DNA from: Deltaproteobacteria bacterium
GTDB lineage: Bacteria; Desulfobacterota; Syntrophorhabdia; Syntrophorhabdales; JANXAF01
Reading direction: 5' to 3'
NCBI GenBank assembly: GCA_026417175.1
Contig: JAOADT010000007.1
Coordinates: 1 to 64,000 of the forward strand
DNA length: 64,000 nt
A program made the position numbers and the translations under genes. Shown in pieces: positions 1 to 8,529 of this stretch. The first letter of the stretch is position 1. Every line of letters begins with the position of its first letter. The notes beneath the pieces were generated by a model that saw only the letters and a program-made list of their open reading frames with translations, was not told the origin of the DNA and searched no databases.

Positions 1-216
1 ACCCTGTAGGGGACAATAGGAGGTGCAAGATGGTAGAAAAGAAGACCTCAGATAAAAGGGATTGCGACTTTATGCTATGTGAAAAATATGCGACAAGAGA
101 AGCCACGTAGAAAAGAAGACCTCAGATAAAAGGGATTGCGACAGGAATAGGAACAATTAATTCTTGTTCAACGCCGCCAGGTAGAAAAGAAGACCTCAGA
201 TAAAAGGGATTGCGGC
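1..216 (+). CRISPR. CRISPR array, leader-distal end, truncated by window start
   Basis: Three 36-nt repeats GTAGAAAAGAAGACCTCAGATAAAAGGGATTGCGAC at 33-68, 107-142 and 181-216 (last one ends ATTGCGGC). Two complete 38-nt spacers at 69-106 and 143-180, plus a partial spacer at 1-32. Repeat 3' end ATTGCGAC resembles an 8-nt crRNA 5' tag. Confidence 0.97.
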
Positions 217-823
217 ATAGCCTTTACAAGTTAGATCAGAGGGACAGAAAGTGAATGAGTAAAGAACTGTAAGGGATAAATGAAAGCAAGTAATCGCATG
301 ATTGTGCGGTTATCGTAATGGGCTGGATAACCTTATGTACCGTACTCAAGTTATTTTTTGGAATGAAAGGATTTGACATAGCATGCTTTATTCTTCTTAT
401 CCATGTGTCCGGGGTTGAGATAATAGTAGTGACCATTCTTATGCTGATAAAACATTTACTTTCCAGCTTGTAGTGTGGCCATTTCGTCAATCTTTTCGAA
501 GTATTTAAAGATCTTAGTTTTTTAGCTGGTAGCCAGCCCAAATAAAAAGGTGACAGTAAAATTTAGAAATCAGCAGAACTCGTTGGGAAATACATGGGAC
601 AAAAATCAAAGAAATAAAGTAGGGATAGGATTTCCTTCGGACAGAGACAAAAGTAAGCGATTCTCGAAGTATGGCGAATAGTTTGGACAAAAGGTTTCAG
701 TTCTGACTCTCAGATACTTATCACATCAGAAAGGCAAGTCTTGTAAGATAGAGAGAGAAATGATATTTGTAAACTTGGTTTAGATTCTGAAAAAATGAAG
801 ATAATCACAAAGGGAGGGAACAA

Positions 824-5074: not shown

Positions 5075-5195
5075 TTCTGAACCTCTTTCTTAGTGTGTTT
5101 TTAAAATTTATACGCTTTTTTTGCGTTTTTTTGCAATTTATGAACTTGGGCTCAGTGTTAAATAATGTTATGTGCGGAATAAAAACTCTGTTATA

Positions 5196-6149
5196 ATGGA
5201 AAAGATGAACATAAAATACGCAAAACTCGGTTTCTATATCAAGGCGGAAACAGAGCTTATCCTTCCACAGTATAAAGGCTCCACTTTAAGGGGGGGATTC
5301 GGCCAGGTTCTAAAAGACGTGGTATGCGCCATAAAAAAAGATTGCTCTGACTGCATCCTCAAATCAAGATGCGTATATAGCTATGTTTTTGAAACAGAAC
5401 CTTTAGGCTCAGCGGAGATCCTAAATATGTCCAAGTACGAAAGGATCCCTCATCCATTTATTTTGGAACCGCCTGAGGAAGAAAGGACTGTCTACCCAGA
5501 AGGAAGTAATTTGTCTTTCAACTTGATATTAATCGGGAACGCCGTCCAGTACTTTCCGTATTTCGTTTTTGCCTTTCTTGAGCTCGGAAGAAGGGGGATA
5601 GGGAGGAAAAAGGGCAAATACTCTATATTTCAAATCATGGATCTAAAAGACAGTAGAGTTGTTTTTACTGATGAACGGCAGACCCTAAGTGAGATTGAGC
5701 CCTCAGTGATTGAGATTCCAGATATCCCAATTAACGATAAGGAAATTAGAAGAGTGACTTTGAGCCTTAAAACACCGCTCAGACTAAAATTCAGCAGAGA
5801 TCTGGTAGTTAACTTAAAATTTCACATGCTTTTAAGAAACCTTCTACGAAGACTAACCCTGATATATTACTTTCACTGCGAACGGCAAAAACCTAAATGG
5901 GATACGAAAGCATTAATCCGTAAAGCAGAAAATGTGGTAACAATTACTTCTGATACTTCATGGTTTGACTGGGAGAGATATTCGTCCAGACAGAGCCTAA
6001 AATTGAAGATGGGCGGACTGATTGGAAACATCACCTTTGAAGGAGAGTTGAACTCATTTTTGCCGATCCTAAAGGCAGGCGAGATACTCCATGCAGGAAA
6101 AGGCACAAGTTTCGGCCTTGGAAGGTATGAGATAGTCGAAATCTCATAG
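5196..6149 (+). CDS. cas6: CRISPR pre-crRNA processing endoribonuclease, RAMP-type Cas6
   Basis: LPQYKGSTLRGGFGQVLKDVVC, Cys cluster CSDCILKSRC, C-terminal GLIGNITFEGELNSFLPILKAGEILHAGKGTSFGLGRYEI (Gly-rich RAMP loop). ATG choice 5172/5196/5205 uncertain. Confidence 0.9.
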   Translation: MEKMNIKYAKLGFYIKAETELILPQYKGSTLRGGFGQVLKDVVCAIKKDCSDCILKSRCVYSYVFETEPLGSAEILNMSKYERIPHPFILEPPEEERTVYPEGSNLSFNLILIGNAVQYFPYFVFAFLELGRRGIGRKKGKYSIFQIMDLKDSRVVFTDERQTLSEIEPSVIEIPDIPINDKEIRRVTLSLKTPLRLKFSRDLVVNLKFHMLLRNLLRRLTLIYYFHCERQKPKWDTKALIRKAENVVTITSDTSWFDWERYSSRQSLKLKMGGLIGNITFEGELNSFLPILKAGEILHAGKGTSFGLGRYEIVEIS

Positions 6150-6209: not shown

Positions 6210-6491
6210 ATGGGAAGAAAACTTTATGTTATTGCCTACGATGTAAGAGATGAGCAGAGACTTAATAAGGTTAGAGAATACTTAAAAAATTACTCAACTG
6301 GTGGGCAAAAGTCAGTGTACGAATGTTTTCTAACAGACGGAGAATTGCAGGAAGTTTTGAAAGAGCTAGCTCGACTTATAAGAGAGGATGAAGACAGGGT
6401 TCACGTATTCAGACTTGAAGGTCGTAGCAAGGTGCACACACTCGGAATAGCGCATCCCCCTAAAGATCCATCATACTTTTTCATAGGCTAA
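6210..6491 (+). CDS. cas2: CRISPR-associated Cas2
   Basis: 93 aa; YVIAYDVRDEQRLNKVREYLKNYSTGGQKSVYECFL..ELQEVLKELARLIREDEDRVHVFRL. Confidence 0.95.
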   Translation: MGRKLYVIAYDVRDEQRLNKVREYLKNYSTGGQKSVYECFLTDGELQEVLKELARLIREDEDRVHVFRLEGRSKVHTLGIAHPPKDPSYFFIG

Positions 6492-6495
6492 AACC

Positions 6496-7452
6496 TTGGG
6501 TACTTTGTACATAGACAAAAAAGGTGTTCTCGTGAAACTTGACGGAGGGGCTCTTGCCTTTTATGATAAAGGTGAGAAAACTGGAATTGTCCCTATTTCG
6601 CCTCTAAAATCTGTGGTTATTTCTTCTAACGTCATAATTGAAAGCTCAGTCCTTAAAGCCCTTGCAGATCATAACATAATGGTTGTCTTTCTGTCCGGAA
6701 AAAGAATGAGGTTCTCGGGCATCTTAAGGGGGAGAATTCATAAAAACGGTCTTCTTCGATTGAAACAGTATGAAAAGTCTCTTTCGTCATTTGCAATGGA
6801 AGTTGCGAGGGACATAGTTAGAAGGAAACTATTGGCACAGAAAGAATTTCTCGAGTCTTTAAAAACTGAGAGGCCAGACAAGATTCTCTTTTTAGACTCT
6901 TCTCTTAACACTTTGTCAAAAAATCTCGAGACAATTTCATCAGCTGAATCTTTTGAGAACATAAGGGGATTGGAAGGTAGTTCCTCTTCCGCTTACTTTT
7001 CCGCTTATACCCAGCTTTTCCCGCCATCACTGGATTTTAAAAAGAGAGTTAAAAGGCCTCCAGGTGATCCGGTAAACGCGATGCTATCCTTTCTTTATAT
7101 GCGAATCCATTATGAGATTTTGAGAGAAGTGGAAATGATAGGGTTTGATCCGACAATAGGGTTTTATCATCAGTTCGATTACGGAAGAGATTCTCTGGCG
7201 TGCGATATAGTTGAACTTTTTAGAACTGAGGTAGATAGGTTCGTGTACAAGATATTCAAAGAAAAGCATCTTTCCCTTAGGGACTTCGCAAAAGACGACG
7301 AGAGGCCAGGTGTCTACCTAAAAAAGCATGGTAGAAAAAAATTATTTCCACTTTACGAAGACTGGGTAGGGAATCTTCGTCCCCTTTTTAGAGAAGAGGT
7401 TAGAGTCCTCGCAAGGAAGGTAATGGATGGAGCGGACTTTGTATCTGAATGA
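6496..7452 (+). CDS. cas1: CRISPR-associated integrase Cas1 (canonical active-site motifs)
   Basis: IRGLEGSSSSAYF (Glu), DPVNAMLSFLYMRIHYEILREVEMIGFDPTIGFYH (His), SLACDIVELFRTEVDR (Asp). TTG start at 6496. Confidence 0.95.
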   Translation: MGTLYIDKKGVLVKLDGGALAFYDKGEKTGIVPISPLKSVVISSNVIIESSVLKALADHNIMVVFLSGKRMRFSGILRGRIHKNGLLRLKQYEKSLSSFAMEVARDIVRRKLLAQKEFLESLKTERPDKILFLDSSLNTLSKNLETISSAESFENIRGLEGSSSSAYFSAYTQLFPPSLDFKKRVKRPPGDPVNAMLSFLYMRIHYEILREVEMIGFDPTIGFYHQFDYGRDSLACDIVELFRTEVDRFVYKIFKEKHLSLRDFAKDDERPGVYLKKHGRKKLFPLYEDWVGNLRPLFREEVRVLARKVMDGADFVSE

Positions 7453-8257
7453 TAGCGGATCTTCCATTTCAGTCATGAGAGATGGACCATCATTATGGAT
7501 TGAAGAAAAAGGCGGTGCTGGAAGAAGAATACCTGTAAGATTTATAGATCTTGTCATATTAGTACAGAATGTGAAAATAGATGCCCAATCCTTAGCAGTT
7601 TTATCGGAAAATCAAGTTCCTGTCATTATCATGGATAGAAGTGGACAACGAAAAGCCTACGTTTTACCTTATGAGGAAAAGATTCCATTTCGCTACAGGG
7701 ATCAAAAGTTTATTTTGAGAAATGAAAGAAGCGAAGAAAGATATAGAAAATGGGCTGAGACAAAAAGAATGATCATAGGGATTAGCGCCCTAAAAAGGAT
7801 AGGGAAAGATAAACTTACACGATGTGAAGAGATAGGAGAAGGAAACTATTCGATTATCATGAAAGAACTGATTAGCTCCATGGGGATTGAAGAGGAAAAG
7901 TATATGATTGTAAAAAACACAGTGTGTTCTTTGTTCCATGGCATAATAGCAAAGAAATTACTTAGAGCAGGTTTCGACATACATCTCGGAGTGATCAACA
8001 GAAGAAAAAACTTTGGTCTTATTCTTGACGTTTCATATATTATGGACGGAGAGATAGATCTCCAGACGCTTCAGTTTTTTAAAACAGATGCGAAAAGGGA
8101 AATCGCATTTCATCATGTCTTTGGAAGGTGCGAATTGAAGCCCAATGTTATGAGATTTATAGCACACAGATTCGAAAACCGAAAAAAGACAATTGGACAG
8201 ATGGTAGACAACATAATAGATGAACTTTGTACGCTTATGAGGGAGATTAAAATGTGA
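7427..8257 (+). CDS. Divergent Cas1 paralogue (Cas1'), predicted altered active site
   Basis: Cas1-like beta-domain (SLWIEEKGGAGRRIPVRFIDLVILVQNVKIDAQSLAVLSENQVPVIIMDRSGQRKAYVLPY) and helical domain KNTVCSLFHGIIAKKLLRAGFDIHLGVINRRKNFGLILDVSYIMDGEID. Overlaps cas1 by 26 nt. Confidence 0.85.
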   Translation: MERTLYLNDSGSSISVMRDGPSLWIEEKGGAGRRIPVRFIDLVILVQNVKIDAQSLAVLSENQVPVIIMDRSGQRKAYVLPYEEKIPFRYRDQKFILRNERSEERYRKWAETKRMIIGISALKRIGKDKLTRCEEIGEGNYSIIMKELISSMGIEEEKYMIVKNTVCSLFHGIIAKKLLRAGFDIHLGVINRRKNFGLILDVSYIMDGEIDLQTLQFFKTDAKREIAFHHVFGRCELKPNVMRFIAHRFENRKKTIGQMVDNIIDELCTLMREIKM

Positions 8258-8529
8258 AAACACCTTATCTTGTCTGCTACGACATATCGGATGAAAGAAG
8301 ATTGACACGATTGTTCAACTATATGAAGGATATGGGTATACACCTTCAATACTCGGTCTTTTACTGTGTTCTCGACTGGGACGAACTTGTAAACCTCAAG
8401 ATGGAAATTAGTAGGATTATAAAAGACGAAGAAGATGATGTAAGAATATACCCATTACAAAAGGACTCCCTTGTTGCCCGTCTCGGTTGTGGTGACAGAA
8501 TTCCAGATAACGTGCAAATTTTTTTGTAA
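8254..8529 (+). CDS. Second CRISPR-associated Cas2 (Cas2')
   Basis: YLVCYDISDERRLTRLFNYMKDMGIHLQYSVFYCVLDWDELVNLKMEISRIIKDEEDDVRIYPL. GTG start overlaps cas1' stop (GTGA). Confidence 0.92.
   Translation: MKTPYLVCYDISDERRLTRLFNYMKDMGIHLQYSVFYCVLDWDELVNLKMEISRIIKDEEDDVRIYPLQKDSLVARLGCGDRIPDNVQIFL

Follow-up and report, generated by a model that had tools for sequence, protein, structure and literature searches.

Our analysis of the 64,000-nucleotide stretch at the start of contig JAOADT010000007.1 (the window) revealed an adaptation module that encodes, side by side, two dissimilar versions each of Cas1 and Cas2 (cas2-cas1-cas1'-cas2'), and this quartet probably forms a single integrase in which a catalytic Cas1 is joined by a mostly non-catalytic Cas1' in a putative heteromer. 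We assign this reading a probability of roughly 0.6. The module would serve spacer acquisition in a type III-A system. The joining of prespacer 3' ends to the repeat would take place in the active sites of Cas1, and Cas1', which appears to combine a Cas1 fold with an active site that is incomplete here and in many relatives, would in its simplest role fill the non-catalytic, Cas2-contacting place (Cas1b). Cas2 and Cas2' may bind the two kinds of Cas1 by means of their different conserved tails.

The four genes form an overlapping run on the + strand (6210-8529), which begins 60 nt past cas6 (5172-6149, + strand; Pfam 7.3e-17, PADLOC 4.7e-103), the gene for a predicted crRNA-processing endoribonuclease. 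The first cas2 (6210-6491; Pfam 3.5e-18) belongs, according to the alignment, to a highly conserved branch with the motif YSTGGQKSVYEC and the tail DPxYFYIG. It is followed by cas1, the predicted catalytic gene with a TTG start (6496-7452; Pfam 3.4e-75), by cas1', coding for the diverged second Cas1 of 276 aa (7427-8257), and by cas2' (8254-8529; Pfam 5.8e-21), which starts with GTG and whose aligned product carries the motif HLQYSVFxCxLTW and the tail GCGDRxPxGVxIFL. Cas2 and Cas2' exceeded both the Pfam cut-off (CRISPR_Cas2, PF09827: 66.0 and 74.9 versus 23.8 bits) and that of NCBIfam (TIGR01573: 45.8 and 49.1 versus 24.5 bits). The open reading frames were found exactly where the original prediction had placed this run, with the start of cas1' 26 nt within cas1 (overlap 7427-7452, + strand, +1 frame) and the start of cas2' on the GTGA at the cas1' stop, and its count of two Cas1-type and two Cas2 proteins is borne out by all four products scoring over the Pfam cut-offs for Cas1 or Cas2. 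The description of the module as mirror-ordered holds for the order of the genes but not for their orientation, every gene lying on the + strand. A CARF-domain protein (Cas_APE2256 in Pfam, 7e-25; PADLOC CARF7, 1.1e-39), a predicted type III accessory, is encoded at 824-1645 of the same strand.

Cas1' was matched by Cas1 profiles of Pfam, NCBIfam and PADLOC, as its proposed identity would lead one to expect. The match to Pfam Cas_Cas1 (PF01867; 36.0 bits against a cut-off of 22.3, E 5.5e-9) covers residues 6-110 only, and the score against the full-length NCBIfam Cas1 equivalog TIGR00287 stayed below its cut-off (38.7 versus 71.7 bits). The Pfam match can be regarded as better than chance, since full-length homologues occur in the same gene order in dozens of genomes. 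Single-sequence searches of genome contigs, viral contigs, plasmids and PDB sequences returned no match to Cas1', and the family was recovered only by whole-genome search and alignment-based search. The AlphaFold2 model of Cas1', built with 35 homologues, reached a mean pLDDT of 91.6 and a pTM of 0.89. Its best PDB matches in Foldseek were the casposase 6opm and the Cas1 proteins of Thermotoga maritima, Archaeoglobus, Aquifex and Pyrococcus, with E-values down to 3.5e-12 and TM scores of ~0.7-0.8 for the better chains. The model preserves the Cas1 fold in its entirety, N-terminal domain included, and Cas1' is a very diverged Cas1, no near copy of the cas1 product.

The catalytic triad is complete in Cas1 of the window (E160, codon 6973-6975; H225, 7168-7170; D237, 7204-7206). 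Cas1' keeps E138 (7838-7840) and D201 (8027-8029) and carries N191 (7997-7999) in place of the triad histidine. Among aligned residues, the E/H/D triad was found in 36 of 36 partner Cas1 proteins and in 15 of 38 Cas1', with at least seven changes in Cas1' on the tree. The glutamate is absent from Cas1' of one Nitrospira-containing clade, and all three catalytic residues are gone from Cas1' of the loci L085-L088; in L085 and L086, G, D and E stand at the aligned triad positions. The motif PPx(2-4)[VIA]N was likewise present in every partner Cas1 (36/36), in 13 of 16 background Cas1 and in none of the 38 Cas1'. All 36 partner Cas1 have it in the form R..PPxDPxN, and DPxN alone is not general to Cas1 (3 of 16 background Cas1). 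The RRPPxDPVN loop is absent from the window Cas1', and the AlphaFold models agree on its loss, with ~19 residues between the helices in Cas1 (172 to 192) and 4 in Cas1' (151 to 156).

The register of the catalytic glutamate in Cas1' may be off by as many as 4 residues, HMMER placing it 4 residues before E138. The assignment to E138 is favoured by hhalign (one residue off) and by the helix ends in the AlphaFold models (helix 153-172 with E160 in Cas1, helix 138-151 in Cas1'), and an assignment to residue 134, which the E-G...Y spacing had suggested and by which the glutamate would be lost family-wide, was dropped on these grounds. The triad counts for Cas1' use the E138 register, which gives the more cautious count, and the choice of register has no bearing on the replacement of histidine by asparagine or on the missing loop in the window protein. 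The window Cas1' can be taken as a Cas1 homologue and, its triad being incomplete, as at most a putative active integrase. Some other Cas1' proteins may be active, since E, H and D are kept in 15 of 38.

The pairing of cas1 with cas1' proved to be conserved across phyla. Whole-genome search located full-length Cas1' homologues of 35-40% identity in five other genomes of the order, and the alignment search of GTDB genomes yielded 33 Cas1' loci with the host labels Nitrospirae/Nitrospira, Thermodesulfovibrionia, Deltaproteobacteria, Syntrophorhabdaceae and Deferribacteres. Contig ends permitting, cas1 lies directly upstream and cas2' directly downstream of cas1' in all 33 of these loci, and cas6 often adjoins the quartet. 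Profile searches detected Cas1' in 51 of 399 Nitrospirota genomes and in ~12 of 398 from the phylum of the window; the weakest hit among the latter (G278, locus L092) is a very diverged Cas1' beside cas1. All 49 Nitrospirota genomes in which a close partner Cas1 was matched at E < 1e-119 also have Cas1', adjacent to it and on the same strand, and Cas1' without partner Cas1 was seen in two Nitrospirota genomes, once at a contig edge and once in a decayed locus. Of 32 other loci, 19 show an overlap of cas1 and cas1' of precisely 26 nt, and cas1' is always in the +1 frame, as translational coupling would predict. The cas1-cas1' pair is no local accident.

Both proteins have evolved under constraint. 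In close pairs, dN/dS was 0.04-0.14 for Cas1' versus 0.08-0.19 for Cas1, and the low Cas1' values include Nitrospira pairs without the glutamate and L047/L049 without glutamate and histidine. Cas1' is under strong purifying selection and shows no decay. The Cas1 tree is a quick one with long branches, and L092 is not firmly placed in it. Cas1' and partner Cas1 each group in a clade of their own (SH-aLRT 98 and 95, respectively), and the other Cas1 proteins of the phylum branch outside both, so that Cas1', and likewise partner Cas1, appears to be of single origin. Tree distances of Cas1 and Cas1' are correlated (r = 0.91, 0 of 2000 permutations), a correlation that reflects co-inheritance in one locus and says nothing on contact, and Cas1' changes 2.2 times faster than Cas1.

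The window starts at a contig end, toward which runs a CRISPR array fragment (28-217, strand unassigned) with three repeats GTAGAAAAGAAGACCTCAGATAAAAGGGATTGCGAC at a period of 74. Contig C17 of this genome opens with the same repeat and encodes Cas10/Csm1 (1.1e-195), Csm2 (2.7e-14), Csm3 (5.8e-59), Csm4 (1.5e-70) and Csm5 (1.1e-21), together with Csx1 and a ring nuclease of the Csm6 type. Through this shared repeat, the sole link between the two contigs, the quartet can most probably be assigned to a type III-A locus that is divided between them. In the relative L011, a single contig holds Csm1, Csm2, Csm3, the quartet and cas6, along with an array whose repeat is related. The arrays found adjacent to quartets share one repeat type, and the comparison suggests that array repeat and quartet integrase travel together. 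Beside the quartet, across phyla, the repeats have in common a core that ends in AAGGGATTGCGAC and has an AGACCT block upstream; it was seen in the window (28-217) and in L013, L020, L021 and L022, and the same core also stands by the quartet in L024, L028, L032, L033 and L036. Furthermore, contig C27 of the window's genome (L015, G000:C27, 8016-11045) encodes a 922-aa Cas6-RT-Cas1 fusion followed by cas2, downstream of a RAMP-like gene run, and the array repeat there is another one, CTTGAAATGGCTTCCAGATCTGGAAGGGTTACGACT. The genome harbours two dissimilar adaptation machineries.

The quartet resists rearrangement. The first cas2 of two Nitrospira genomes (G065 and G062) lies ~13.7 kb from the remaining genes, yet it is retained. 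These loci had been read as having lost the first cas2, and the argument that Cas1 works with Cas2' alone was dropped once a whole-genome search had located a cas2 of that type at this distance. In L073 (G065:C3:243000-262000) and L045, a giant ORF of >2000 aa lies between the cas2, ~13.7 kb away, and cas1-cas1'-cas2'-cas6, and the displaced cas2 has a CARF-like-looking gene and an array-like repeat region as neighbours. In the more distant relatives L085 and L086, intervening genes part cas2-cas1 from cas1'-cas2', and all four genes are kept; L085 (4001-7296) contains two intervening genes, the second of them CARF-like as judged by eye from its sequence. The patterns of displacement and separation, with all genes kept, point to cas2-cas1 and cas1'-cas2' as the modular units.

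Reduced forms of the module were found as well. Among four weaker Cas1 relatives in Nitrospirota, L136 and L138 occur with a very diverged Cas1' and L139 is a plain cas1-cas2. In G619 (L137, G619:C1, 2946-4690), cas2-cas1-cas2' lies on a 2.9-Mb contig with ~40 nt in place of a detectable cas1'. Cas1' is therefore not indispensable everywhere, and its natural absence in the presence of both Cas2 proteins makes this locus a useful comparison. A decayed locus (L140, G518:C1, 3203-3936) holds a truncated cas1' and cas2' by cas6 and csm-like genes, cas1 and the first cas2 not being found in that stretch, and in a few genomes profile searches returned fragments of Cas1' that contain stops.

Three other explanations of the second pair were weighed against a shared integrase. 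Cas1' and Cas2' might form a sub-complex of their own, with a DNA-binding or regulatory task, that is accessory to a normal Cas1-Cas2 integrase and contributes no protomer to it; leader or repeat recognition, prespacer capture, or control of length or orientation would be its jobs. The separate standing of cas1'-cas2' in L085 and L086, the 2.2-fold faster evolution of Cas1' and the persistence of cas2-cas1-cas2' without cas1' in G619 would all suit such a sub-complex. Cas1', however, keeps the whole Cas1 fold with its N-terminal domain, has no extra DNA-binding domain and is joined to cas1 by an overlap of conserved length, and we consider an accessory sub-complex unlikely. The presence of its own cas2 beside each cas1, together with the retention of E, H and D in 15 of the 38 Cas1', could also be understood if the locus encoded two separate homomeric integrases, Cas1-Cas2 and Cas1'-Cas2', devoted to different prespacers or arrays. 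Such an arrangement is improbable given that the triad is broken in the other 23 Cas1' proteins and the PPxDPVN loop missing from all, that the sole cases of Cas1' without partner Cas1 were a contig edge and a decayed locus, and that the arrays found by the module have a single repeat type.

That Cas1' is merely a functionless duplicate on its way to decay is far less plausible still. The loss of catalytic residues, the one genome without Cas1' (G619) and the stop-containing pieces in a few genomes could be cited in its favour, but it is contradicted by purifying selection on Cas1' at dN/dS values as low as those of Cas1, by intact reading frames in dozens of genomes and by the maintenance of the gene over the divergence of several phyla.

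The reading that we prefer, a single integrase with two kinds of Cas1, can be related to known complexes. In the Cas1-Cas2 integrase of E. coli, the 3' overhangs of the prespacer enter Cas1a and Cas2 lies against Cas1b (PMC6395717), and in the Cas6-RT-Cas1-Cas2 complex Cas1a is catalytic and the non-catalytic Cas1b is touched by the C-terminus of Cas2 (PMC8102632). A Cas1 that always has the triad beside a Cas1' that often does not is what would be expected if the two protomer places had been given to two genes, and the case for a heteromer is strengthened by the retention of triad and PPxDPVN in Cas1 and their erosion or absence in Cas1'. The different tails of Cas2 (DPxYFYIG) and Cas2' (GCGDRxPxGVxIFL) would fit two different Cas1 surfaces. 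The heteromer itself, its stoichiometry, the protomer position of Cas1' and any gain in polarity or end-specific processing are putative. A stricter version, which we consider less likely than not, is an obligate four-gene heteromer in which asymmetric dimers of Cas1 and the pseudo-enzyme Cas1' would be bridged by a Cas2-Cas2' heterodimer, with different subunits distinguishing the two prespacer ends or the leader and spacer sides of the repeat.

The type I-E Cas1-Cas2 of E. coli consists of the same folds, with Cas1a/Cas1b dimers bridged by a Cas2 dimer, but it fills all positions from one Cas1 gene and one Cas2 gene, whereas the quartet has two of each; unlike the quartet, Cas6-RT-Cas1-Cas2 has a single, fused Cas1 and no second one. 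Thermus thermophilus HB27 likewise has more than one cas1 in its genome, the extra cas1 being found with a type III array, and the passage on it gives no sign of an overlapping paired gene (PMC7515739). The PADLOC-DB profile PDLC01185 is named 'Cas1, diverged variant, second in the loci', after a diverged second Cas1 of a cas locus, and its name conveys no mechanism. It matches 33 of 35 Cas1' and ranks first for L092, the most diverged relative (7.7e-17; quartet cas2-cas1-cas1'-cas2'); the window Cas1' is matched at only 1.9e-4, behind 13 general Cas1 profiles. The existence of this profile indicates that its builder had already noticed such second Cas1 genes. The openly readable literature that was searched contained no paper on the PDLC01185 variant, and neither the module nor its distribution or catalytic asymmetry was described there.

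Present in ~13% of the Nitrospirota genomes sampled, Cas1' is no one-organism curiosity. In the cited Cas1-Cas2 integrases one Cas1 gene serves both places, so that their roles are not separately mutable; in the quartet the roles are apparently split over two genes, which would allow the catalytic and the non-catalytic place to be mutated separately. The quartet would give CRISPR adaptation a clear example of a pseudo-enzyme subunit, and it would aid the study of how prespacer ends and orientation are dealt with in type III systems.
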